Assembly: GCA_944385575.1 (NCBI GenBank)
Contig: CALWXT010000018.1
Coordinates: 1-32,741 of the forward strand
From: an uncultured Flavonifractor sp.
GTDB taxonomy: Bacteria; Bacillota; Clostridia; Oscillospirales; Oscillospiraceae
Direction: 5' to 3'
Length of the DNA: 32,741 bases
This document shows positions 7,926 to 20,431 of the stretch, one piece after another; positions within the stretch are counted from its first letter, which is position 1, and each line of letters opens with the position of its first letter. The notes under the pieces were generated by a model. The model saw only the letters and a program-made list of their open reading frames with translations. It was not told where the DNA came from and did no database searches. The position numbers were made by a program, and so were the translations under genes.

Positions 7926-10900
7926 TTATGCCCGAATCTTGGTACGGCGGCGACGAATCACAAGCTGGAGCACCACAGCCGCCAGGGCCAAAAGCAGCAG
8001 GCCCAGCAGAAGCTGCATCACAGGGAACGGCTGGGGCAGGACACAGAATTCTGTCGTTTCCCCTGTTCCCTTCAGGAGCAGATAGCTGCCATCCACCGTG
8101 CTGTCCTGCTTCTGCCATCCGTCTGCACCCCGCACCCAGAGCTGCCAGCGCCCGCCCTGCTCAGGCAGACGATAGTGGATGGTATAGGACACCTCATCCA
8201 GTTCCGGGTCGGTCACGGTGACCGACCAGACCGTACCCTGGTGCGTCTTCCCCTCCTGGTCAGTCCAGCTTGTGTCCTGGCTGGTGTGGGAAACCTGGGC
8301 GCCGCTGCTGAAACTGCCGTCCACCAAAATCTCCGGCAGTTCACCGCCGCCACTCAGCGCTGAGGTATAAGGTGTGTAAACCGCTTCTACCGTACAACTT
8401 GCCGTGATTCTGCTGTAGTCCAGCTCAGGCCAAGCGGCGGAGCAGCCCTCTTTGGCCGGGATATCCGGCAGGGACGACAGCCCCTCCCCGTATGGGACAT
8501 CAAGGACGGCCACCGTCTCCCCGTCTGCCGTAAATGTCAGGGTTAGGCGGGCAAAATCCGCCGGCGCGTCCGGAAGGGTACACAGTGTCTCAAAATCCGC
8601 AGGCTCCGCCTTCCCGGCGTAGCTGATGCCGTCAATGGCCGCCATGGTATCACTTGTAAAGAGATTTCCGTTTACAGTCCCGTTGCTCTCAACATTCCCG
8701 GCCACCGCGCCCAGATAGGCGCCTCCACGGGAGAGCTCCACCGCTGCGCGGCAATCTGTCAGTGTACTGCCCTGGCCGGCAATGCCGCCCACATAGTGGC
8801 TGCCCGCCAGTGTGCATCTGCTCCAGCAGTTTCGGATTACGGCCGAGGAGAGACCGGCCACACCGCCCACATAGCTGCCGTCAGTACTGGTCACATCCCC
8901 GTAGTTCTCGCAGCGCTCGATCCGTCCCAGATCCATCCGGCCGGCAATGCCGCCGGAATTGTCCTTCTTGCCGGTAACCAAGCCGGAATTGATGCAGTCG
9001 AACACGGACGCTCTGGCCTGCACCAGGAAATCGGCAGAGCGCTCCCCCTGCTTGGTCAGGTCGTCCTCCGGATCGAATTCCAAATCGATGGCCATGGCAC
9101 CAACGATCCCGGCCACATCCACGTCACCATCCACACTGCCCTCATTCCGGCAGGCAGACACCCGGCCGGTAGACTGGTTCTCCAGCGCCTGCTGGCCGGA
9201 GACATCCTGGATGCGGTCCTCCAGCTGGGTCTCCCCCATCCGCTTGCCTTCATCCCGCACCAGGTCGCTGATGACGCCCAGCTGGGCGTTGATAGCCTTC
9301 AGATCATCCAGCAGGGTGTCGGTGGAGTTGGCAATGAGGGTATTTAAATCGTCCGCACCCTCCATCAACCCGGAGAAGGCGCTGCTGAGCGCGCCGCTCT
9401 GCCCACTTACCGCGGCATCCAGAGATGGCAGCTGAAAATCCGCTCCGTCAGCCAGTTCCCGGACGACCTGATGGAACCGTCCGGCGCTGCTTGCCAGATC
9501 ATCCAGCACATCCGACAGGCTCTGCCCGGCCTTTGCCAGGTTCCGCAGGGAGCTATCCAGGGTCGCTCCGCCATCTTCCAGATACCCCAGGCCATCGGCC
9601 AGATGCTTTCCGCTCCGGGCCAGCAGAGTCAGGGCACGGCTGGCTTCAGACGCCGCCTCACGCAGATGTTCCAGCGCTTTCCGCACCGCTCCAGCCGGAT
9701 CACCCAGCCCGTTTTTCAGCGCGTCCAGGGCGGAAGACACATGCTCCCTGGCATTCCGGAGGGCCTGCGCTCCGTCTGAAGCGTCGGTCACGGCCTGCCG
9801 CAGCTCCCCGGCCATATCACTGGTGATTGTGCCAAGTTGGGCGGCTTTGTCCACCGCGCTGGAAAACTGATCTGCTGCCTTACTCAGAGCGGTCAGCTGG
9901 TCATCCATATCGTCCAGGATAGGCGTAAGATCGTCCAGCGCCTGGGAGAGTCGTGCCGAGAGGTCGTTGACCTGGCCGATGCTCTCGTCCGTCCAGTCCA
10001 CCATGGCGTCAGACAGTCCCTCCACTGCGTTTTTGGCTGCCTGAGTCTGGCCGGAGAGCTGGCTCAGCTGGGCGGACAAGCTGTTTGAAGCTCCGCCCGC
10101 ATCGGTCAGCAGGCCGTCCATACGGTTTTGCAGGACGTCCAGTTCTCCTCCCAGCCGCTCAAGAAAGTCCTTCTGGTAAAGAAGGGTCACCGACGGCTCC
10201 AGCTGGCCCACGATACCGCCCACGTCTTTTCGGCCCTGAATGGCGCCGGTATTCACACAGCCGTCCAAAAAGCCGTTCTGCCGCCCGGCAATGCCGCCCA
10301 CGTTATAACCTACATGTGGATAGCCCACCGCGCCCTGATTGCTGCAGTCCTGCAGGATGCCGGTGGACAAGCCTGCCACACCGCCTACATCTGTCCAGCC
10401 GGACAGATCCGTCGCTGCGTCGGTGACAGATTCCTCCTGAAGGATGGTCTGGGGGTCGGCAGGGGTCTCCAGTTCAGTGGTGTTTACCCCGCTCTGGTTG
10501 GTACACTGGATCACACTGCCCTGGTTTTGGCCCACGATGCCGCCGGTGTGCAGCTCGCCGCTGACAGAACCGGATGCCGTACAGCCGATGATCTGTCCCC
10601 CGGCCCGGTTGCAGCCGGCGATCCCGCCCACATCTGTCTTGCCGGAGACAGAGCCCCGGAAGGTACATCGGAGGATCTGGCCCTGGTTATCGCCCACGAT
10701 GCCGCCTATCGTGTCCCGGAAATCTGTAGGTGCCAGGTTCCCTTTCACATTCAGATCCCGGACCGTTCCGCCGGGCTGAAGATAGCGGAACAGGCCCTGT
10801 GTATTGCCGCTGCCGGTAAGATACAGGCCGGATATGGTATGCCCGCCGCCGTCAAAGGTACCGCCAAAGGTTGGGATGGCCTGAAAATCCGTGCCGGTCA

Positions 10901-11099
10901 GGTCGATATCCGCCGCCAGGCAGACGGTTTTATCCTGGGACCAGCTGTCCAGCGCGCAGTTTCGGGAGAGCTGGACCAACTCCTCCGCCGTATGAATGGT
11001 GATAGTGTCCCCTTCCGCTGCCCACGCCATGGGCGCCAGAAGCTGGATCAGTATGACTGCCGCCAGGACGGCGGAAAGCCCTTTATTCCTGTGTCTCAT
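7926..11099 (-). CDS. Secreted, C-terminally anchored GLUG-repeat / long-helical protein
   Basis: A 1057-aa envelope protein and the last gene of the MMPL operon. A signal peptide (to about residue 28) leads to beta-helix repeats of the GLUG kind (GGIVGDNQG, GGIAGCN, GGIVGQNQG, GGVAGLS, GGIAGRQNG, GGIVGQL) at about 130-300. A long helical region (305-640), rich in heptad-like Leu/Ala/Asp patterns, follows; then a second GLUG block (645-800), a beta-rich segment, and one membrane helix (1026-1048) with the basic tail RRRRTKIRA. So nearly all of it lies outside the membrane. The ATG overlaps the end of the MMPL gene by 17 bases, with AGGAGG inside that gene. No enzyme motif is seen; I infer an accessory role to the exporter. 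Confidence 0.8.
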   Translation of the reverse strand: MRHRNKGLSAVLAAVILIQLLAPMAWAAEGDTITIHTAEELVQLSRNCALDSWSQDKTVCLAADIDLTGTDFQAIPTFGGTFDGGGHTISGLYLTGSGNTQGLFRYLQPGGTVRDLNVKGNLAPTDFRDTIGGIVGDNQGQILRCTFRGSVSGKTDVGGIAGCNRAGGQIIGCTASGSVSGELHTGGIVGQNQGSVIQCTNQSGVNTTELETPADPQTILQEESVTDAATDLSGWTDVGGVAGLSTGILQDCSNQGAVGYPHVGYNVGGIAGRQNGFLDGCVNTGAIQGRKDVGGIVGQLEPSVTLLYQKDFLERLGGELDVLQNRMDGLLTDAGGASNSLSAQLSQLSGQTQAAKNAVEGLSDAMVDWTDESIGQVNDLSARLSQALDDLTPILDDMDDQLTALSKAADQFSSAVDKAAQLGTITSDMAGELRQAVTDASDGAQALRNAREHVSSALDALKNGLGDPAGAVRKALEHLREAASEASRALTLLARSGKHLADGLGYLEDGGATLDSSLRNLAKAGQSLSDVLDDLASSAGRFHQVVRELADGADFQLPSLDAAVSGQSGALSSAFSGLMEGADDLNTLIANSTDTLLDDLKAINAQLGVISDLVRDEGKRMGETQLEDRIQDVSGQQALENQSTGRVSACRNEGSVDGDVDVAGIVGAMAIDLEFDPEDDLTKQGERSADFLVQARASVFDCINSGLVTGKKDNSGGIAGRMDLGRIERCENYGDVTSTDGSYVGGVAGLSSAVIRNCWSRCTLAGSHYVGGIAGQGSTLTDCRAAVELSRGGAYLGAVAGNVESNGTVNGNLFTSDTMAAIDGISYAGKAEPADFETLCTLPDAPADFARLTLTFTADGETVAVLDVPYGEGLSSLPDIPAKEGCSAAWPELDYSRITASCTVEAVYTPYTSALSGGGELPEILVDGSFSSGAQVSHTSQDTSWTDQEGKTHQGTVWSVTVTDPELDEVSYTIHYRLPEQGGRWQLWVRGADGWQKQDSTVDGSYLLLKGTGETTEFCVLPQPFPVMQLLLGLLLLALAAVVLQLVIRRRRTKIRA

Positions 11100-13560
11100 G
11101 TTCTTCCTCCTTGGCTGCGCCCTCTCCCGACTCCACCAGAGCGGCCAGCTCTCCGTGGATCACGCCGTGGATATTGGCGTCGATGGTGCCACTGACCCGG
11201 CCCCGCACCCGTCCGCTGACGTAGATGACGCCGCTGCTCCGGGTGATCCGCTCATGCTCCGGGAATTTCAGGTTGAACCGGGTCCGTTCCACAATCTTGT
11301 CGCCCAGCAGCAGAAGCTGGGGCAGGATGAACATGACCAGGAACATGGAGATCAGCGTACCCCGGCACAGGCACTGCCCGATACCCACAATACTGGGCTC
11401 AGTGGTGATGCGGCCGATCAGGAAGGCCGCCACCGACAGGATGCTGCCCGATGTGAGCACGGTGGGGAAAGCCAGACTGAGGGCCTTGACGATGGCCTGC
11501 CGCCGGGGCATAGAGGCCTTCAGCTCATTGAACCAGGAGGAGATGACGATTGCATAGTCGATGTTGGCGCCCATCTGGATGGCGGTGACGATCAGATAGC
11601 TCATAAAGAAGATAGGCTGTCCCATCAGTCCGGGGATGGCGAAGTTGAGCCAGATGCTGCCCTGGATCACCAGGATCAGCAGGATGGGCAGCCCCACGGA
11701 CAGGAAGGTGAACAGCAGCACCAGGATCACGAACACCACAGTCAGGATGCTGATGAGGATGTTGTCCCTGGCAAAGGATGTCGACAGGTCATAATCGCTG
11801 GTGGACTCGCCCACCAGATAAACGCTGTCGGCGTCATAGTACCGCTCCGCCTCGGCGTGGATGGTCTTGAGGAAGTTAAAGGTCTCCTCCCCCTCCTCCG
11901 GCAGATCCAGCTGCAGCACCAGCCGGGAATAGTTCTCCCCTAACATCTGGGCGCGGGCGTCGGTAAGCTGGTCATACAGCGAGTCGATCTCCTCATCCAT
12001 CCCGGCGTCCAGAGTGATATAGCCGTCTGCCTTCATGTCGTGGATGAACAAAAAGAGGTCCATCAGGGGAATGGCATAGTCGTCCACACCGCCCACAATT
12101 CGTCCGTATTCCTCCTGATCCGCGGCGTAGGCGGCATAGAGCAGCTTGGCCTGTTCATAGTCCAGATCGATGAGCTCGGAAAACTGACGGGGCGACAGCG
12201 CGTCGGTCAGGGTATAGCCGTCCATGGCCTCAATGTTGGCAAGGCCCAGGGCGTTCTCCACCTCGTCATAGGCTGACAGGCGGTTGAGCAGGGCTTTCTC
12301 GCTCTCATAGTCTCCGCGGGGCACCAGCAGGGCGGCGGTATTCTGGGTCCCGAAAGTCTCATTGATGGTCTCCGCCGCAATCTGCGCTTCATTCTGGCTG
12401 ATGGTGTGGATCTGGCTGTAGCCATAAACGTAAGGACATTGATTGGAAAAATAAAAGGCCGCCACCAGGCACAGGGCGAACACCGGCGCACCCACAAACC
12501 GCAGCTTCACCACCAGTTTGCCCCAGCCGTCGATTGAGGGGATGAAACTCTTGTGCTGGGTGCGCTCCATAGCCTTGCAGAAGATCATCAGCAGGCCCGG
12601 CATCAGGGTGAACACCGACAGCATGCTGATGCAGATGGCCTTGATGAGCACCATGCCCATATCAAAGCCGATACGGAACTCCATAAACATCATGGCCGCC
12701 AGGCCGGAAATGGTGGTCAGGCTGCTGGCCGAGATGGACGGGATGGAAGCGCTGAGGGCAGCGATACAGGCCCGCCGGTCGTCAAAATGCTCCCGCTCCT
12801 CCAGGAAGCGATGGAGCAGAATGATGGCATAGTCGATGGCCAGTGCCAGCTGCAAAATCACCGTCACGGAGTTGGAAACGAAGGAGATCTCTCCAAACAG
12901 GAAATTGGTGCCCAGATTGAGCAGGGCGGCCGCCCCGAAGGTGAGCACCAACACCGGGATCTCCGCGTAGGATCTGGAAGTAAGCAACAGCACCAGCAGA
13001 ATGACCGCCGCTGCGATGACCAGGATGACCCCCATCTCCGACTGAAGGGTGTCGGAGGTGTCGTTGCCCACAGCGGTATCGATATAGCTGTCGTACGGCT
13101 CCAGCAGCTGACGCAGTTGATCCACCGCCTCACGGCTTACCGGGTCGGTCTCCTCCCCGGCGAAGGTGACGGTGATCAGTACGTCCGCCCCCTTACAGTA
13201 ATCGGCAGCCTCCTCGTCCCCGCCGCCGGTCTGACCGCTTCCCAGTACAGCGGAGGTGATACCGTCCAGCTCCTCCATCCGCCCGGCCAGATCGCGGGCC
13301 ATATCCACTGTAGCGTTGGACACCATGACCCGTGCAGTGGCAAAGGTGGTGAACTCATCCTCCATAATGTTGAGACCCTGACGGGTCTCGGTGGTAGCGG
13401 GCAGATACTGGGTGATGTCGCTGCACACCGACACCCAGTTCCGGGAAAAGAGGGAAAAGATGGCCGCACAGATATACAGGAAAAAGATCAGATTACGCTT
13501 GTCTACGATAAGGGTAGCCAGGCGCTCAAAAAAAGATGGCTTGTCAGGGTTTTTACTCAC
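11083..13560 (-). CDS. MMPL/RND family exporter
   Basis: An 825-aa transporter of the MMPL branch of the RND superfamily, which uses the proton gradient to move lipids or hydrophobic compounds. Two homologous halves are seen, each with a membrane helix, an outside domain and a membrane bundle. The proton-relay motif occurs in both: ALAIDYAIILLHRFLEER in the first and ANIDYAIVISSWF in the second. The start is GTG at 13558-13560, behind GAGGAG, and overlaps the upstream 110-aa gene by eight bases. The last 54 residues include an unusual Val/Ile-Gly alternating tail. Substrate is unknown; a divergent TetR gene suggests induction by a toxic or lipid-like ligand. Confidence 0.92.
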   Translation of the reverse strand: MSKNPDKPSFFERLATLIVDKRNLIFFLYICAAIFSLFSRNWVSVCSDITQYLPATTETRQGLNIMEDEFTTFATARVMVSNATVDMARDLAGRMEELDGITSAVLGSGQTGGGDEEAADYCKGADVLITVTFAGEETDPVSREAVDQLRQLLEPYDSYIDTAVGNDTSDTLQSEMGVILVIAAAVILLVLLLTSRSYAEIPVLVLTFGAAALLNLGTNFLFGEISFVSNSVTVILQLALAIDYAIILLHRFLEEREHFDDRRACIAALSASIPSISASSLTTISGLAAMMFMEFRIGFDMGMVLIKAICISMLSVFTLMPGLLMIFCKAMERTQHKSFIPSIDGWGKLVVKLRFVGAPVFALCLVAAFYFSNQCPYVYGYSQIHTISQNEAQIAAETINETFGTQNTAALLVPRGDYESEKALLNRLSAYDEVENALGLANIEAMDGYTLTDALSPRQFSELIDLDYEQAKLLYAAYAADQEEYGRIVGGVDDYAIPLMDLFLFIHDMKADGYITLDAGMDEEIDSLYDQLTDARAQMLGENYSRLVLQLDLPEEGEETFNFLKTIHAEAERYYDADSVYLVGESTSDYDLSTSFARDNILISILTVVFVILVLLFTFLSVGLPILLILVIQGSIWLNFAIPGLMGQPIFFMSYLIVTAIQMGANIDYAIVISSWFNELKASMPRRQAIVKALSLAFPTVLTSGSILSVAAFLIGRITTEPSIVGIGQCLCRGTLISMFLVMFILPQLLLLGDKIVERTRFNLKFPEHERITRSSGVIYVSGRVRGRVSGTIDANIHGVIHGELAALVESGEGAAKEEEHETQE

Positions 13561-13885
13561 GGCTGCTCTCCTCTGTCTGTTCTTCCGTCATGGGCGTACC
13601 GAACCACTTCATCCGGTACCCGTCCAGTTCCGCGGTGCCACGCAGCTCCTCCCCTTCCAGGTGAAGCACGGAACGGCAGGCATGATCCCCCACCGCAGTG
13701 CGCAGGCTGTGGGTCAGTGTGAGCACACCCGCCCCGTCCCACGCTCCGCGCACGGGATTGTCATATCCGGCCAGAGAAAGGGTGCCCCATACGCTGCCGT
13801 CTCCATCCCGGTGCAGAAAAAGGCATCCTTCTCTGGGACCCATCTGGCTATATAAGGTAAGCTGATAGTGCTGCTTCATATCCAT
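13553..13885 (-). CDS. 110-aa unknown protein, first gene of the MMPL operon
   Basis: I do not recognise this family with confidence. It is a small soluble protein with no signal peptide and no membrane segment, beginning MDMKQHYQLTLYSQMGP. Strands alternate with turns throughout (GSVWGTLSLAGYDNPVRG, then LHLEGEELRGTAELDG), suggesting a small beta-barrel or sandwich, perhaps binding a ligand. The start at 13883-13885 follows GGAGGGAG by six bases and lies downstream of a good promoter; a longer upstream frame runs through the promoter and palindrome and is unlikely. Being first in the operon, it may be a cytoplasmic partner or ligand-binding accessory of the exporter, which is inference only. 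Confidence 0.7.
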   Translation of the reverse strand: MDMKQHYQLTLYSQMGPREGCLFLHRDGDGSVWGTLSLAGYDNPVRGAWDGAGVLTLTHSLRTAVGDHACRSVLHLEGEELRGTAELDGYRMKWFGTPMTEEQTEESSRE

Positions 13886-13939: not shown

Positions 13940-13989
13940 ATGCAAAATGGCCGGTGTGTCAGAATTCTGACACACCGGCCATTTTGCAT
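13940..13989. promoter_or_regulatory. Perfect 50-bp palindrome, likely TetR operator region
   Basis: Both 25-base arms are exact reverse complements, centred between 13964 and 13965 with no spacer; the core is GTGTCAGAATTCTGACAC. It lies between the MMPL-operon promoter and the tetR promoter. TetR-family repressors commonly bind palindromes of 15-30 bases in such divergent regions, so the core is the likely operator. The full length is greater than one dimer needs and could hold two dimers or form a cruciform. Confidence 0.8.
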
Positions 13990-14054: not shown

Positions 14055-14663
14055 ATGAAGCATCGATCCTATGAATCCTCCCACGCCACCAAGCAGGCGA
14101 TCAGCGCCTCTCTCAAGGCTCTGATGGTCCAGAAGCCGCTGGATAAGATCACCGTCAGCGAGATCATGGATCATTGCGGCATGGTGCGCCAGCATTTCTA
14201 TTACCATTTTGAAGATATCTACGACCTGGTGCGCTGGATGTTTCAGGAGGAGGCCGTCTCCCTGCTCCAGCGTCAGGAGGGCGTACTGCTGTGGCAGGAG
14301 GGCCTGCTGCAGCTGTTTCAGTACCTTCAGGAAAACCGGGCTGTCTGCCTGTGCGCACTTAATTCCCTGAGCCGCAACCACCTGAAGCATCTCTTCTATA
14401 CGGACCTCTACGCCATCATCCGCCACACCGTCATTACTGTGGCCGATGAGGTTGGACTTGCCTCCGACGAAGATGGTGATCTGGAGCTGTTTACCCATTT
14501 CTATGTCATTGCTCTGGCAGGGCTGGTGGAGAGCTGGCTGCTGGGTGAAATTGATAAGACGCCGGAGGAGCTGATCCATTTCACAGACAAGCTTCTTCGG
14601 GACCAGATGCGGGGCAGCGTGCTCCGGCAAACACAACTGGACGGAAAAGAGGATGTGCTATGA
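14055..14663 (+). CDS. TetR/AcrR family transcriptional regulator
   Basis: A 202-aa regulator with the TetR helix-turn-helix at about residues 10-56: AISASLKALMVQKPLDKITV, then EIMDHCGMVRQHFYYHFEDIYDLV. The remaining helices form the ligand-binding and dimer domain, resembling the DhaS-like / TetR_C group common in Firmicutes. It most likely represses the divergent exporter operon, and itself, through the palindrome between them. A GGAGG site lies ten bases before the ATG. Its stop overlaps the next gene in an ATGA junction, so it is coupled to the kinase-like gene. Confidence 0.9.
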   Translation: MKHRSYESSHATKQAISASLKALMVQKPLDKITVSEIMDHCGMVRQHFYYHFEDIYDLVRWMFQEEAVSLLQRQEGVLLWQEGLLQLFQYLQENRAVCLCALNSLSRNHLKHLFYTDLYAIIRHTVITVADEVGLASDEDGDLELFTHFYVIALAGLVESWLLGEIDKTPEELIHFTDKLLRDQMRGSVLRQTQLDGKEDVL

Positions 14664-15340: not shown

Positions 15341-18300
15341 TTATTCCGTTTCCACGGCACCGGACCAGGCGGGCAGAATGGGCCTGCTCTCTCCGTCCAA
15401 AACAAAGACCTTGGCGGTAAGGCCCTGGGCAGAAGGCACAGCCAGCTCCGCTGCCACAGCCTTCTCGCCGGCCGCCACTGTAATGGGTTCAGTGGCAGAC
15501 ACCTCAACCATACGGCCGTTTTCGTCATACAACGCAACGTAGTAGCAGGCCGTCACAGTTTCGGCGCTGTTGTTCTCAGCGCTGACTACCACACTGACCT
15601 GTCCGTCTTCCGCGGCAGCACTGGCGTAAATATGGAATTGCGTGTCCGCCTCATTCACGCCGCTCTGGACTACGGCGAAACCAATGTTGTTGGTCAACAG
15701 GTTTTCCCGGACCTGCTGTTCCTCCGTCAAATCAGCCACAGCATAGACCAGCGTACCGCTCGTCAGAACACTGGCATCACTGGTAAAGGACAGGGTGGCC
15801 ACATCGCCGGGGGCCAGGGTCTGGATGGTCTGGCTGTCCGCTACTGCCGTTCCGTCCTCGGAGCCAGCATGCAGGGAAATCGGAATATTGGTCAGGATAT
15901 CCTGTCCCCGGTTCACCACCCGCACTAACGTCTCCACGTAACCGTCGCCCAGGTCTGTAGAGGAGATCTCCTCCACAGATACGTCAGACAGCCGCAGGGT
16001 CAGTTCCGCGCTGTTGTCTGCCATATTTACGTCGTCGGCCAGCAGAGAGGTCACCTTGACGGTGACTGCCGCAGGCAGGCTCTCAGGCAGAGGCAAGTCT
16101 GCCGTCAGCAGCGCGCTGCCGCCGGGGGCCAGGGTCTCCTGCACGTAGGCGGTGCCCAATAGGGCGGCACCATCATACAGTTCGATCTGGAACAGGGAAA
16201 CGGTCTCAGTACCCTGGTTGGCCAGCTGGAGCTTTACATTCAGCATCTCGCCAGGGATCAGGGTGGTACCATCGTAGATCACATCGGTGACTGCCACATC
16301 CATGCCCGGCGTCACCTCATAGTACATCAGGTCGGCCTGCGTAATGTCATAGTCCTCACCCATGATCTGCCGGTTGGCCAGGATGGCCAGCTTCCCGCTT
16401 TTTGCGGAGACAGCGGCGGACACGTCGCTGAGATAGCCGTCCGCCTCCAGCAGGGGGAGCAGCTGGCCCCAACCGCCGTCCCTGACACTGAGATAGAGGG
16501 TGGTACTGCTGCTGTCCTCGGTGGTACCCCGGAACAGCACAGCCTCCTTGCCGCCGAAGTTCAGGGGCAGGAACCAGTCGGAGCCCTCCACCGCGGGGAC
16601 CTGGTCGCCGCCGGTGCTGCGCACCACGCCGTTGTCGTACCACCACAGCTTGCCGCAGGCGGAGACCGGCTTGCCACCGCTGCCCACCGTCTCAGAACCG
16701 GAGGCAGTCAGACGGCAAAGGGTCTGTCCGTCCTTCGTACCCACACTGTAATAGAGAACGCCGCTGCCGTCGGCGGTAAGGGCATCAACGCCGGAAATGC
16801 CTTCGGCCAGCTTGGTATACGCTTTTGTCGCCTCAGAGTACACCCAGATCTCCTGTCCGCCCTCAAAGGGACCGTTGGGGCAGTGCACAAAGGCAATCTT
16901 GATCCCCTCGCCGTCCTTCCACAGAGTAGGCAGCATATCCATGCCGTCGGCAATTCCGATGGTCTGGTACGTGTCGGCCCCCAGAATACCGTAGGCGATA
17001 TCCATGTGGCTGGCCGTCGTGTTCATATCAGCGCCGCTTTCCAGGATGTCGTCCGCTTTCATCCACAGGGCCATTGGCTGGCCGTCCACCACCTGGAGGG
17101 CGGGGGTAAAGTCAGCCGTATCGCTCCCGGTGGGAAGCAGGGCAGGCGTGCTCCAAGTGGACCCGCTGCAAATGCTGTAATAAAGGCCCGTGCGGTTCTC
17201 GTCGGTGCGGCCGGACACATCCTCCAGCCAGACAGCCGCCGTCTTTTCACCGGTGGAATCGGAGTAGGTCACCACCTGAGGCACGGTGTAGGGGTAGACA
17301 TTCCTCTTGAAGAGATTGTCGGTAATCTTGCCGTCATCCACCGTCTGCAGGGAGACAGCGTCGTTGGCCAAAAACTCGGAGGGCGCCTCCAGATAGTCCC
17401 GGCCCGCCTGGACCCACTCCACATCCGCCAGATCCAGCACCGCCATGGTAGAGAGATTGGAATTGGGCAGCAGCTGACCATCCTGATAGAGGACCAGCTC
17501 CTTGCTGTTCCAGAAAACCCACTTGCCGCTCTCATAGCCCAGGAGGCTGCCCACAAAGGCAGCGGAGGCAGTGAGGCTCCACTTGGTGTCATCGCTCTCA
17601 TAGGGGAAATTGAACTGCACCTTCAGGTTGCCGGTGCCCTGTAGTCCGCCGGAGAGGATCTTGGGATTGCCCAGCCCGTTTTCCACGGAGATGCCCAAGG
17701 TGAAGGACTGGGAATAAACACCGGGCAGAGAGGTATCCTGCGTGGTCAGCAGTCCCTCCTCATTCATCCAGGCCTGGAGCGTGCTCTGCAGGGAGGCCTT
17801 GAGGGATGCGGTGAAATACATGGGGGCGGCGCCGGCGTAATAGTTCTGGGTGTAAGACGCGCTGCCGGTGAACACCACGACGACTTTGGCAGAGGAGACC
17901 TCCGGCTTCCACTTCTCATCCAGATAGCCCTCAAAGGTACCCAGGATCTGGAACGAACCGGAGATACCCACGTTCACCTCCGTGGCCTCGGTAAGAATTC
18001 CTTTTGCCTCCGCGTCCTTAATGAAGACGTCCATGGCCGCGTTCTTGAAGTCCTTGTTGTATGTGCCGAAGGAGAGCAGGGCGTCGTTGAGGGCGTTATA
18101 GGTGTCCATGGAAAAGCCGGTGCTGTCTTCCTTGCCCTGGGCCTTGATGCCGATGGTACCCTTGATGGTGCCATCCTCCTTCAGCTCATAGCTGATGGGC
18201 AGATGTCCGTTTATCAGCTTGGTCATATCGAGGCTCAGAGTCTGGTTGTCTACCACATCCACCGTTTCGCCGCCGGGGTCCCGGATGATGGACTCGGTCT

Positions 18301-20431
18301 TGTTGCTGCCCAGATCCATACCCACAGAGGGCTGGACATCGTACTGGACAAAGATCTTGAGGGGCTGCTCCGTCACAGCGCCGTCTGCCGCCACCAGCTT
18401 GAGGTAAACGGGAATGCCCGCCTTAGGCCCCCAAAAGAAGCTGACGTCCTCGTTATAGCCCTCATGCAGCTCCTGGCTCCAGCCAGTGGACTGGCACAGC
18501 CAGGCCTGTCCTTCCCCGTGGCCGTTCCAGTCCACGCTCAGGTAGACGGTCCGGTTATGCCACCGCTCGGTGTTGACGGTGACCAGCTCCGACTCCAGCA
18601 TCAGGTTGGAATAGCAGATAAAGCTGCCCGAAGATTTATCCAACAGGGCAGCCTGGACGATGGGGCCATCCTGCTCCGAGCGGTAGAGGTAGACGTTGTT
18701 GCTGGCGCCGATCTGGTTTCCGGGGAGCACATAGGTGCGATAGCCGGCCTTGGAGATGGTGACATCGGGGGGATTTTCTTTGTCAATCTCCAGGGTAATG
18801 TAGTTTTTACCTTCGGTGTTGTAAGTCTTTCCATTTACCTCCACCGTAAAGCCGGTGGGGATGGGATATTCCTTGTTATCCGGGTCGAAGATGCGGATGG
18901 TACGCTTGACGGTTGTACTCTCGTACACCGGCTTCTCCCCCGTGGGCGGATGGTTGAAGCCCAGGCAGTGGAGGTTCGCGTTGCTCAGGGTCTGCTTGCT
19001 GGTTGAACCGGGGATCTTCTCCCAGTCCTCCTCGCTGCCCTCATAGTAGACATGGGCGATCTTCCTGCAGCCGGAAAAGGCATAATTATCAATCGTAGTG
19101 ACCGACGCAGGGATGTAGACGAAGGTCAGCTTGCTGCTGCTGAACGCATAATTGGGAATATGCGTCACGCCGTCGGGAACCACCGCCTTGGAAATATAGC
19201 TGCCGTCAAACATACTTGAGGCGTTGTCCCCCATCGCTCCGCCGGGGAGGGTGCCGGTGCCGGTGAGACCCTCGCACATCGCATAGATGGAACTGCCCAC
19301 CTCCTCCAGGCTGGAGGGCCAGGCGGGCTGGCTGGTAAGACCGCTGGCCAGGAACACGCCGTCGCTCAGCTTCCGCAGGCCGTCCGGTAGCGTCACCTGG
19401 GTCAGGGACGTGCACTCCATAAAGGCCCGGTTGCCGATCCACTCCAGTCCGGCGGGGAAGCTCACCGACGAAAGGGCGCTGCAATAGGCAAAGGAATATT
19501 CGCCGATCTCTTTGATGCCGGCGGGGATGGTGACGCTGGTCAAATTCCGACAGTATTGAAACGTCTTGTCTGGAATGGTCGTCCAGCTCTCCGGGATCTT
19601 CACGCTGGTGACGTCCAGCCCACTAAAAACCCCATAGCCTACATCGGTCAGGCTCTCGGGCAGGATCAGGCTGCCTGTGAACGCGCAGTCGGAGAATGCT
19701 TCGTCCCCTACCGACTTCAGGCCATCCGGCAGGGAAAGCCCACCCTGAAACCGACAGCCGTAAAAGGCCCGGTTGGTGATCTGGGTGGTGCCGGCGGGGA
19801 CAGTCAGACCATGACGGAAAAAATTGCCGCCGAAGGCCCGCTCCCCCATAGACGGCCAGCGGGCAGGCAGGGTCAGGGTGCCGTAGAGTTCCTGACTGGT
19901 GTCCATATCGCCGTTCACAAAGCCGGTTTTCTGGCAGGCATAATAAAAGGCACAGGTGCCCACGCTGGTTACCCCGCTGGGAATGGTAATATTCTCTATC
20001 TTGTAGGTCGAGGCAAAGGCATAGTCGCCGATGGACTCCAGCTTGCTGGGCAGGTTTACCTCAGCGATGTACACGTCGTTGCAGGGCTGGAACATCCGGT
20101 AAAACGCATAGCTGCCGATGTGGGTTATGTCATCGCTGAGTACCAGCGTCTTGATGGCATAATTATATTGATTCCATTCCGGCAGCTTGGAGGTACTGTA
20201 ATCGAACATCTCTCCCGCGCCGCTGATAGTGAGCACGCCATCTGTGCTCAGCGTCCAGGTAAGGTTGGTACCGCACAGGCCGCTCATCTCCTCCGGGATC
20301 GAGGCGGCCTGAAGCTGGACCTCCTCTCCGGTAGATTTCTCCGCCGGCTCCAGTGCCAGAGCCGGGGCCGGCAGCAGCCCCAGCAGTAAACACAGGATCA
20401 GGAAACCCGCCGCAAATCTTCTCTTCTTCAC
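15341..20431 (-). CDS. Large secreted BspA-type LRR / CARDB surface protein
   Basis: A 1696-aa secreted protein. After a signal peptide (to about residue 27) comes an N-terminal cap with GTNLTWTLSTDGVLTISGAG, then many BspA-type leucine-rich repeats (about 95-470) of the form IGSYAFYR, SVGTCAFYY, IGNRAFMEC and LPDGLRKLSDGVF. A carboxypeptidase-regulatory-like segment (about 500-590), a long middle region with propeller-like repeats (about 1050-1350), two CARDB-like domains (about 1377-1580) and a final Ig-like domain follow. No LPXTG motif, SLH domain or C-terminal membrane helix is present, so it may be released or held non-covalently. It starts with GTG behind AGAGGAG. BspA-type proteins are known for host or extracellular matrix binding; a role in adhesion is inferred. 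Confidence 0.85.
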   Translation of the reverse strand: MKKRRFAAGFLILCLLLGLLPAPALALEPAEKSTGEEVQLQAASIPEEMSGLCGTNLTWTLSTDGVLTISGAGEMFDYSTSKLPEWNQYNYAIKTLVLSDDITHIGSYAFYRMFQPCNDVYIAEVNLPSKLESIGDYAFASTYKIENITIPSGVTSVGTCAFYYACQKTGFVNGDMDTSQELYGTLTLPARWPSMGERAFGGNFFRHGLTVPAGTTQITNRAFYGCRFQGGLSLPDGLKSVGDEAFSDCAFTGSLILPESLTDVGYGVFSGLDVTSVKIPESWTTIPDKTFQYCRNLTSVTIPAGIKEIGEYSFAYCSALSSVSFPAGLEWIGNRAFMECTSLTQVTLPDGLRKLSDGVFLASGLTSQPAWPSSLEEVGSSIYAMCEGLTGTGTLPGGAMGDNASSMFDGSYISKAVVPDGVTHIPNYAFSSSKLTFVYIPASVTTIDNYAFSGCRKIAHVYYEGSEEDWEKIPGSTSKQTLSNANLHCLGFNHPPTGEKPVYESTTVKRTIRIFDPDNKEYPIPTGFTVEVNGKTYNTEGKNYITLEIDKENPPDVTISKAGYRTYVLPGNQIGASNNVYLYRSEQDGPIVQAALLDKSSGSFICYSNLMLESELVTVNTERWHNRTVYLSVDWNGHGEGQAWLCQSTGWSQELHEGYNEDVSFFWGPKAGIPVYLKLVAADGAVTEQPLKIFVQYDVQPSVGMDLGSNKTESIIRDPGGETVDVVDNQTLSLDMTKLINGHLPISYELKEDGTIKGTIGIKAQGKEDSTGFSMDTYNALNDALLSFGTYNKDFKNAAMDVFIKDAEAKGILTEATEVNVGISGSFQILGTFEGYLDEKWKPEVSSAKVVVVFTGSASYTQNYYAGAAPMYFTASLKASLQSTLQAWMNEEGLLTTQDTSLPGVYSQSFTLGISVENGLGNPKILSGGLQGTGNLKVQFNFPYESDDTKWSLTASAAFVGSLLGYESGKWVFWNSKELVLYQDGQLLPNSNLSTMAVLDLADVEWVQAGRDYLEAPSEFLANDAVSLQTVDDGKITDNLFKRNVYPYTVPQVVTYSDSTGEKTAAVWLEDVSGRTDENRTGLYYSICSGSTWSTPALLPTGSDTADFTPALQVVDGQPMALWMKADDILESGADMNTTASHMDIAYGILGADTYQTIGIADGMDMLPTLWKDGEGIKIAFVHCPNGPFEGGQEIWVYSEATKAYTKLAEGISGVDALTADGSGVLYYSVGTKDGQTLCRLTASGSETVGSGGKPVSACGKLWWYDNGVVRSTGGDQVPAVEGSDWFLPLNFGGKEAVLFRGTTEDSSSTTLYLSVRDGGWGQLLPLLEADGYLSDVSAAVSAKSGKLAILANRQIMGEDYDITQADLMYYEVTPGMDVAVTDVIYDGTTLIPGEMLNVKLQLANQGTETVSLFQIELYDGAALLGTAYVQETLAPGGSALLTADLPLPESLPAAVTVKVTSLLADDVNMADNSAELTLRLSDVSVEEISSTDLGDGYVETLVRVVNRGQDILTNIPISLHAGSEDGTAVADSQTIQTLAPGDVATLSFTSDASVLTSGTLVYAVADLTEEQQVRENLLTNNIGFAVVQSGVNEADTQFHIYASAAAEDGQVSVVVSAENNSAETVTACYYVALYDENGRMVEVSATEPITVAAGEKAVAAELAVPSAQGLTAKVFVLDGESRPILPAWSGAVETE

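Follow-up and report, generated by a model that had tools for sequence, protein, structure and literature searches.

The window, meaning the whole 32,741-nt stretch of DNA that was analyzed, covers positions 1 to 32,741 of contig CALWXT010000018.1 of an uncultured Flavonifractor sp. It carries an operon of three minus-strand genes, each overlapping the next. In the direction of transcription, these encode a 110-aa protein, a pump of the MMPL/RND type, and a long exported protein that combines GLUG-type beta structure with long helices, hereafter the partner (Table 1). An earlier note, made by reading the sequence, had proposed that the three form an export complex; the gene boundaries and both overlaps that it gave were found again. 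The divergent gene encodes a TetR-family protein, which is probably the regulator of the pump operon, and the adjacent perfect palindrome is its putative operator, again as a probable assignment.

Table 1. Features of the pump–partner locus. Coordinates are positions in the window.
Feature	Coordinates	Strand	Basis or remark
110-aa protein gene	13553..13885	minus	optional accessory
MMPL/RND pump gene, 825 aa, GTG start	11083..13560	minus	PF03176
GLUG/helical partner gene, 1057 aa, exported outside protein	7926..11099	minus	Glug match + structure model
Overlap, 110-aa gene/pump gene	13553..13560	minus	8 nt
Overlap, pump gene/partner gene	11083..11099	minus	17 nt
Partner, first GLUG beta part, residues 28–308	10176..11018	minus	model + alignment
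Partner, helical (stalk) region, residues 309–629	9213..10175	minus	model + alignment
Partner, second beta part, residues 630–840	8580..9212	minus	model + alignment
Partner, C-terminal membrane anchor helix, residues 1027–1056	7932..8021	minus	model + hydropathy
Perfect palindrome, 50 bp, core TGTCAGAATTCTGACA	13940..13989	none	
TetR-family regulator, TetR_C_8, divergent from operon	14055..14663	plus	Pfam/NCBIfam

The pump matches the MMPL domain in two stretches (Pfam, E = 1.3e-43). Its hydropathy profile has 14 peaks, with wide gaps at about residues 36–175 and 368–600 and one peak (488–506) within the second gap; transporters of the MMPL/RND type are expected to have twelve membrane helices and two large outside loops. 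The presumed second outside loop is about 230 residues long and, judged by eye, has no long heptad stretch. Two Asp-Tyr pairs, D243 Y244 and D668 Y669, are invariant across an alignment of 11 sequences, and we presume that they serve in proton coupling, as in MmpL3. Among solved structures, MmpL5 and MmpL4 come closest by sequence, with matches covering about 200 positions. A repeated G-x-V pattern had raised the suspicion of a bactofilin-like C-terminal tail, which was rejected for lack of a Pfam match at E ≤ 5. MMPL matches at E ≤ 1e-50 occur in 88 of 200 genomes of the family, counting the best two to five candidates per genome. To our knowledge, no function has been assigned to the MMPL pumps of this family.

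The AlphaFold2 model of the partner has a mean pLDDT of 84.1 and a pTM of 0.64. From the N-terminus, the order is a signal sequence, a GLUG beta-solenoid, a helical region, a second beta-solenoid-like part, C-terminal beta domains and a membrane helix. The N-terminus is a hydrophobic stretch resembling a signal peptide, and the modelled C-terminal helix falls on a strong hydrophobic peak. The single membrane anchor of the earlier note is thus right for the mature protein, and the precursor has the signal sequence as well. A Glug domain is recognized in the first beta part (Pfam, E = 4.9e-8). In the model, helices occupy residues 312–629, the longest one spanning 339–421.

Conservation was followed in an alignment of the window's protein with 69 of 70 collected sequences (L052 was left out, and 10 of the 80 source loci were skipped as partial). 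The first beta part is the best-conserved region, with a median identity of 49%, and the second has 42%. The helical region has a median of 20% identity to the window's protein and ranges from 191 to 634 residues among the 70 aligned sequences, while the flanking beta parts stay constant in length.

A Foldseek search of the partner model against the PDB gave no match at E ≤ 0.001 (best E 9.7e-3), and therefore the geometry of a tube is without support. No wall-binding family scored above its cut-off in Pfam or NCBIfam. Weak PADLOC matches to ZorA, Jet and Dru are located within or near the helical region and were rejected as evidence of homology. The same was done with matches to SMC, Rad50, apolipoprotein and MCE proteins, which lie in or around that region, the curated ones far below their cut-offs. 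The helical conduits of the MCE type stay as an analogy to the partner.

The 110-aa protein has no family in Pfam (E ≤ 0.01) or NCBIfam (E ≤ 1). Lacking any hydrophobic stretch (the highest mean over 19 residues is 0.51), it is probably cytoplasmic. Its model has eight strands (pLDDT 90.1). The single Foldseek match at E ≤ 0.001 is a designed beta barrel (4.8e-4, TM 0.65), followed by FABPs at E ≥ 3.3e-3 and TM of about 0.4–0.55; other barrels (NHBA, an amine dehydrogenase domain) reach TM 0.59–0.70. The protein is tentatively predicted to be a small eight-stranded calycin-like barrel. A homologue is encoded immediately before the pump in 12 of the best 80 of 469 GTDB loci (about 13 of these 80 are too short upstream or differ in gene order); within the genus, this holds for 4 of 20 genomes. 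The 110-aa protein is therefore an optional accessory, and its proposed place in the core of the complex has to be given up.

The pump and the partner are paired in nearly every place where the partner is found. Among the hosts of the system is the commensal Butyrivibrio proteoclasticus (L095). When GTDB was searched with the GLUG profile alone, an MMPL gene lay directly upstream, in the same strand or frame, in 76 of the best 80 of 469 loci. Two of these loci (L057 and L125) have MMPL and GLUG in the same frame. In three others the contig starts at or inside the GLUG gene, and one (L105) has the order GLUG-GLUG-MMPL. The start of the partner gene overlaps the end of the pump gene by 1–23 nt in 70 of 74 loci (three of 77, namely L057, L105 and L125, were excluded as fused, broken or differently ordered), and the flanking genes vary between loci while this overlap is kept. 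In four genomes of one genus, the only one with known fusions, pump and partner form a single open frame of 1912, 1921, 2003 or 1913 aa; a fifth fusion is split by contig ends.

The earlier note asked whether the genes co-occur, and named homologues lying mostly away from MMPL genes as an outcome against it. Counting the best two to five candidates per genome throughout, the MMPL pump (E ≤ 1e-150) is present in 45 of 391 genomes of the class and the GLUG/helical protein (E ≤ 1e-40) in the identical 45. As read by eye from the tables, in 44 of these 45 pairs the two genes share contig and strand and their match ends are separated by no more than about 550 nt; the remaining pair is spread over two contigs. 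Among 249 genomes of the phylum, both proteins occur in the identical five and are adjacent in all five. The MMPL cut-off of E ≤ 1e-150 selects the pump clade of the window, so this co-occurrence partly restates that clade. In 200 family genomes, 43 of 45 long GLUG matches lie directly behind MMPL, against 0 of 35 matches confined to the N-terminal GLUG part. These counts were made against 49 MMPL rows; the remaining rows were compared by eye with the 35 N-terminal-only matches, and none was near. The homologues are thus not mostly away from MMPL. In one genome (G022), the GLUG protein is full-length but no MMPL adjoins it. Tree distances of pump and partner correlate with r = 0.753 over the 62 pairs in which both proteins were usable (maximum 0.168 in 1000 shuffles), which may reflect host descent alone.

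Within the window's pump clade, some loci have another helical exported protein in place of the GLUG protein. A coiled-coil-like gene follows the pump in two genomes, and a third (G170) has a fused tail of this kind; these were judged by eye, and the two separate genes are broken by a frame change (G186) or cut by a contig end (G120). On a tree of 88 hand-picked pumps (the window's, those of 32 loci with a separate GLUG gene and two of the four fused ones among them; L193 was left out), partner type requires 9 changes where the least possible is 6, on a topology in which long branches meet (L146 with L159 and L161). Two GLUG-linked pumps, L135 and L136, branch apart from the others.

More distant clostridial MMPL genes adjoin a different secreted helical protein in 44 of 55 loci (best two to five candidates per genome). 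The 55 are drawn from 59 distant places in the 200 family genomes, those in G117, G135, G199 and G200 being left out; the 44 include three loci cut inside the partner (L176, L191 and L203) and two with the partner upstream (L192 and L197). For five distant MMPLs, the stretch examined shows no helical neighbour and the pump has no enlarged loop. The TIGR03057 heptad family is matched at E ≤ 0.01 by 25 of 35 secreted neighbours. A weak secreted-partner match in G041 (L212) was rejected as a permease-like protein of 1185 aa. From the GLUG pairing, the coiled-coil replacements and the 44 distant loci, we conclude that pumps of this family commonly have an outside partner. The premise that Gram-positive MMPL pumps act alone is therefore not safe, and mycobacterial MmpL5 requires MmpS5 (PMC12501195).

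Since pump and partner are nearly always adjacent and are fused in one group, they very likely belong to one machine. For physical contact between the two, the natural fusions speak indirectly. We put the probability at roughly three in four that they are the two halves of one export machine, encoded by overlapping genes, in the envelope of gut Clostridia, as judged from sequence. Of the earlier three-gene proposal, this keeps the pump and its outside helical partner, paired by adjacency, overlap and fusion, and drops the 110-aa protein as a fixed member.

The co-inheritance and the overlapping genes would equally fit a carrier or acceptor, in which a lipid or glycolipid flipped by the pump is picked up by the GLUG protein and brought to the wall or surface with no permanent complex. 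The better conservation of the beta parts over the helical part also suits a carrier, but the C-terminal membrane helix would hold such a carrier at the membrane and the fused forms are one to one with the pump; we regard this explanation as doubtful. The partner may instead position or regulate the pump, its stalk and GLUG parts binding wall polymers or a neighbour and leaving the substrate path untouched. The threefold range of stalk length between constant beta parts is spacer-like, and related pumps are served by several different helical partners, but the window's partner lacks a recognized wall-binding family, and we think this role rather improbable. That a surface protein and a pump merely answer the same TetR signal is very improbable: the operon is apparently TetR-controlled and the GLUG protein of G022 stands alone, but single-frame fusions, an overlap kept among differing flanking genes and the near-constant adjacency to MMPL all argue against it.

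If pump and partner do form one export machine, the MMPL protein, driven by the proton gradient, would extract an amphiphilic or lipid-like substrate from the membrane. Anchored beside the pump, the partner would present its coiled-coil stalk and beta-solenoid at the outer face, take over the substrate and lead it into or through the wall. By analogy to MmpL5, which has its coiled-coil tube in cis, a conduit or stalk through the wall supplied in trans is plausible. The 110-aa protein might be an optional cytoplasmic small-ligand barrel that carries or senses the substrate. Control of the operon would lie with the divergent TetR protein, acting through the palindrome. In a one-membrane cell, an outer membrane channel is not expected, unlike in the Gram-negative tripartite RND pumps.

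A broader reading, which we offer tentatively and rate at somewhat below an even chance, joins the clostridial observations. First, an MMPL pump with a dedicated outside helical partner would be a general, undescribed class of export machine across the thick wall. Second, at least three partner types (the GLUG solenoid-stalk, a plain membrane coiled coil and a secreted X-X-X-Leu-X-X-Gly protein) would have been separately recruited or fused in. Third, a subset of the pumps would instead bear helical repeats in an outside loop of their own. Finally, the partner would be an oligomeric conduit through peptidoglycan, solving the problem that mycobacteria solve with the MmpL needle. Should MMPL pumps prove to be machines of two parts, each of their unnamed neighbours could be tested as a subunit, and structure work would have a ready single-chain target in the natural fusion. 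Stalked RND exporters that span the wall would then be an idea extending beyond mycobacteria to ordinary Gram-positive bacteria. In the open-access literature, we found no paper on the pairing of MMPL with a GLUG/helical protein.

Among known proteins, GLUG-motif surface proteins share that motif with the first beta part of the partner; those matching its N-terminal GLUG part only differ in that none of the 35 in family genomes adjoins an MMPL. The X-X-X-Leu-X-X-Gly heptad proteins (TIGR03057) are shared with the neighbours of distant MMPLs and not with the window's partner, which has no match to that family at E ≤ 1 (NCBIfam). An adaptor of the AcrA/HlyD type was considered and rejected, there being no match to a lipoyl, hairpin or beta-barrel domain (Pfam E ≤ 0.01, NCBIfam E ≤ 1). 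The Gram-negative tripartite pumps (PMC8277102) are alike in combining an RND pump with a separate outside protein that has long helices.

The mycobacterial systems are described in three papers: MmpL5 is a trimer with a coiled-coil tube (PMC12501195), AcpM, MmpL5 and MmpS5 form a complex (PMC12346298), and MmpL10 has a coiled coil in a 255-residue helical stretch at 480–734 (PMC12183618). MmpS5-MmpL5, MmpL4 and MmpL10 resemble the present locus in that an MMPL/RND pump goes with a membrane-anchored partner and with long helices on the outer face. MmpS is a single helix plus an Ig-like domain, whereas the partner here, at 1057 aa, is built of GLUG beta parts and long helices and has no match to MmpS in Pfam or NCBIfam. 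The optional cytoplasmic protein here is a predicted barrel, where the MmpL5 complex has an acyl carrier protein (PMC12346298). The window's pump, with 825 aa and a second loop of the length given above, is without an insert like the helical stretch of MmpL10 (PMC12183618). In mycobacterial MmpL proteins, the coiled coil is inserted in the pump, whereas here it sits between the GLUG beta parts of a second protein that is rarely fused to the pump.

Pump and partner are encoded together here and almost everywhere else that the partner was found. The window makes up an entire contig (C18) of a 2.65-Mb genome, and within it the genes for the 110-aa protein, the MMPL pump and the exported GLUG/helical partner overlap successively by 8 nt and 17 nt.

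Features of the locus, in window positions
Feature	Position	Strand	Remark
110-aa protein gene	13885-13553	-	
MMPL pump gene	13560-11083	-	825 aa
Pump C-terminal tail	11086-11271		pump residues 764-825
GLUG/helical protein gene	11099-7926	-	1057 aa
Perfect palindrome	13940-13989		50 bp; between TetR gene and 110-aa gene
TetR gene	14055-14663		divergent from the three-gene set
BspA-type leucine-rich-repeat protein	15341-20431		1696 aa, with CARDB domain

The GTDB genomes were searched with the GLUG profile alone, and the best 80 of 469 loci were taken; their record titles include Oscillospiraceae, Lachnospiraceae, Clostridiaceae and Vallitalea. In 76 of these 80, the gene just upstream on that strand is an MMPL, or MMPL and GLUG share a frame (L057, L125). 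Three more begin, as contigs, at or within the GLUG gene, and the last (L105) has the order GLUG-GLUG-MMPL. Across 200 family genomes, MMPL directly precedes 43 of 45 long GLUG/helical matches and adjoins 0 of 35 matches that cover only the N-terminal GLUG part. One of the two long matches lacking it is at a contig end (G041); the other (G022) is a genuine exception, preceded by a DegV-like gene. This protein, L129 (G022:C17:130835-133972), is full length, and a potassium-uptake-like gene also lies ahead of it. With the best few candidates scored per genome, pump (E<=1e-150, a cut-off that picks out one pump clade) and partner (E<=1e-40) are found in the identical 45 of 391 class genomes and the identical 5 of 249 phylum genomes. 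The pump is present in 14 of 20 genus genomes, where strong partner matches (E<=1e-50) adjoin it. With partner starts chosen by our own scoring rule, the pump and partner genes share 1-23 nt in 70 of 74 loci; in the remaining 4 the partner start lies 0-15 nt from the pump stop. Over 62 pairs, the distances in the pump tree and the partner tree are correlated (r=0.753), the highest value among 1000 shuffles being 0.168; this shows joint inheritance and not contact.

As for fusions and REPLACEMENTS, pump and partner form one open frame in four genomes (L149-L152; genus g180, family f55), of 1912, 1921, 2003 and 1913 aa, with the pump end joined to the signal-like sequence of the partner. In a fifth g180 genome, also seen as L125, contig ends cut through this same fusion. 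The fusion-like frame of L057 was left uncounted because the pump within it is broken. GLUG is absent from 6 of 49 pump rows in the family-genome adjacency set. The pump at G212:C57 stops at a contig edge, as probably does that at G166:C376, and the G111 pump, without a partner, falls on the opposite side of the pump tree. Judged by eye, the pumps of G186 and G120 adjoin a gene that is coiled-coil-like and has a hydrophobic segment at its N-terminus; a frame change interrupts it in G186, and the contig end cuts it in G120. The G170 pump, also by eye, carries a coiled-coil-like tail between membrane helices. A FastTree of 88 pumps places GLUG, coiled-coil and fused pumps on one side and other partner types opposite, with 9 changes of partner type in total; the GLUG-linked pumps of L135 and L136 branch away from the rest.

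The partner begins with a signal-like N-terminus. Its predicted model (mean pLDDT 84.1, pTM 0.64, from an alignment of 70 sequences) has a first beta part at residues 28-308, helices spanning 312-629, a second beta part at about 630-840, more beta strands as far as about 1022 and, at 1027-1056, a C-terminal membrane helix. Among the 70 sequences, the helical part is anywhere between 191 and 634 residues long, against a steady 260-305 and 205-266 for the beta parts; relative to the window's partner, median identity is 20% in the helical part versus 49% and 42% in the beta parts. The helical part, variable in length and poorly conserved between constant beta parts, thus behaves like a spacer or stalk. 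The GLUG protein had no PDB match, either by Foldseek at E<=0.001 or by phmmer at E<=0.01.

Pumps outside the GLUG-linked clade were also examined, as 55 of the 59 distant MMPL loci from the same family-genome search. In 44 of the 55, the pump has a different type of secreted helical protein as its neighbour (42 downstream, 2 upstream). The earlier note had proposed a complex of pump, anchored GLUG/helical partner and small cytoplasmic protein; its general idea of a pump with an outside partner is therefore broader, in this group, than it was stated. TIGR03057, a model of X-X-X-Leu-X-X-Gly heptads, is matched by 25 of 35 such neighbours. Those at L160-L208 share a conserved N-terminal part as well as the heptads, and many end in an amphipathic FWxxLLxLFG-like tail; the first 230 residues of the L163 protein, the sole member listed in full, have no Pfam match. 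In a reverse search, the secreted partner turned up in 18 of 59 genomes: 14 matches adjoin MMPLs already in the family search, 2 adjoin MMPLs seen on fetching and 1 is at a contig edge. The remaining match, a weak one, hit a permease-like protein that is unrelated and was rejected.

The pump itself is enlarged in 6 of the 11 distant loci without a secreted neighbour, and 5 of the 55 have neither feature within the fetched stretch. Units with a repeat length of about 80-87 residues lie in the second outside loop of L144, L145, L132 and L189, and L146 has a weaker repeat there, near 70. L193 was called enlarged from its length alone, and both it and L189 have an interrupted frame. These six pumps are about 1080-1510 aa long, with helical-looking loop units, which residues 440-545 of the window pump weakly match (E 0.002 and 0.018).

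The 110-aa protein is found less widely. Homologues occur in 13 of the best 80 of 469 GTDB loci, about 13 of the 80 having upstream sequence too short or a different gene order. Twelve lie directly upstream of the pump, and 11 of these have a divergent TetR much like the window's (E<=4e-57), the twelfth (L050) starting too close to judge. Four of 20 genus genomes have a homologue (E<=1.1e-19), each adjoining the pump, and a further match (E=0.077) is located elsewhere. Among the family genomes, 11 of 200 have a match, 7 directly upstream of an MMPL (two distant MMPLs included) and 4 not. In L163 and L171, the homologue precedes a distant MMPL that has the other secreted partner, so the three-gene order exists also with a different outside protein. 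In its model (pLDDT 90.1) the protein forms a barrel of eight strands that most resembles a designed beta barrel, with FABP-type and other barrels as weaker matches. It might carry or sense the substrate, though this is a guess.

Allowing up to two mismatches, the core of the palindrome, TGTCAGAAWTCTGACA, occurs once in the window, against 0.01 expected. The core, or a copy with one base changed, is also present in L049, L055, L071, L091 and L101, and a copy with two bases changed in L054; none was found in the searched stretches of L056, L057, L062, L070, L098, L119 and L163. The outer arms in L049 differ in sequence, yet are again self-complementary over 50 bp, which suggests that palindrome length, besides the putative operator core, may matter.

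MMPL proteins use protons to drive the export of lipids or amphiphiles. The pump has Asp-Tyr pairs, which we take to serve proton coupling, and these are invariant in the 11 aligned pumps. A glycine/valine pattern repeats in the C-terminal tail of the pump; it is conserved in the 11 aligned pumps and apparently absent from some others, and the tail has no Pfam match. Pump and partner are co-inherited, their genes overlap and are in places fused, and other helical proteins replace the partner. We infer that the partner would stand on the outer face of the pump, where it would carry or guide substrate into the wall.

Searches of an open-access library, on themes such as accessory proteins of clostridial MMPL, YhgE with MMPL and Firmicutes MMPL coiled coils, turned up no paper on the GLUG-MMPL pairing. 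The closest solved structures to the pump by sequence are MmpL5 and MmpL4, over about 200 positions. The nearest models for pump and partner are MmpL5 and MmpL10. MmpL5 is trimeric, bears a coiled-coil tube and requires MmpS5 (PMC12501195; PMC12346298), and MmpL10 oligomer formation is driven by its coiled coil (PMC12183618). The helical part here, in contrast, is a separate protein, so pump and partner are no member of that type, but may work like it.
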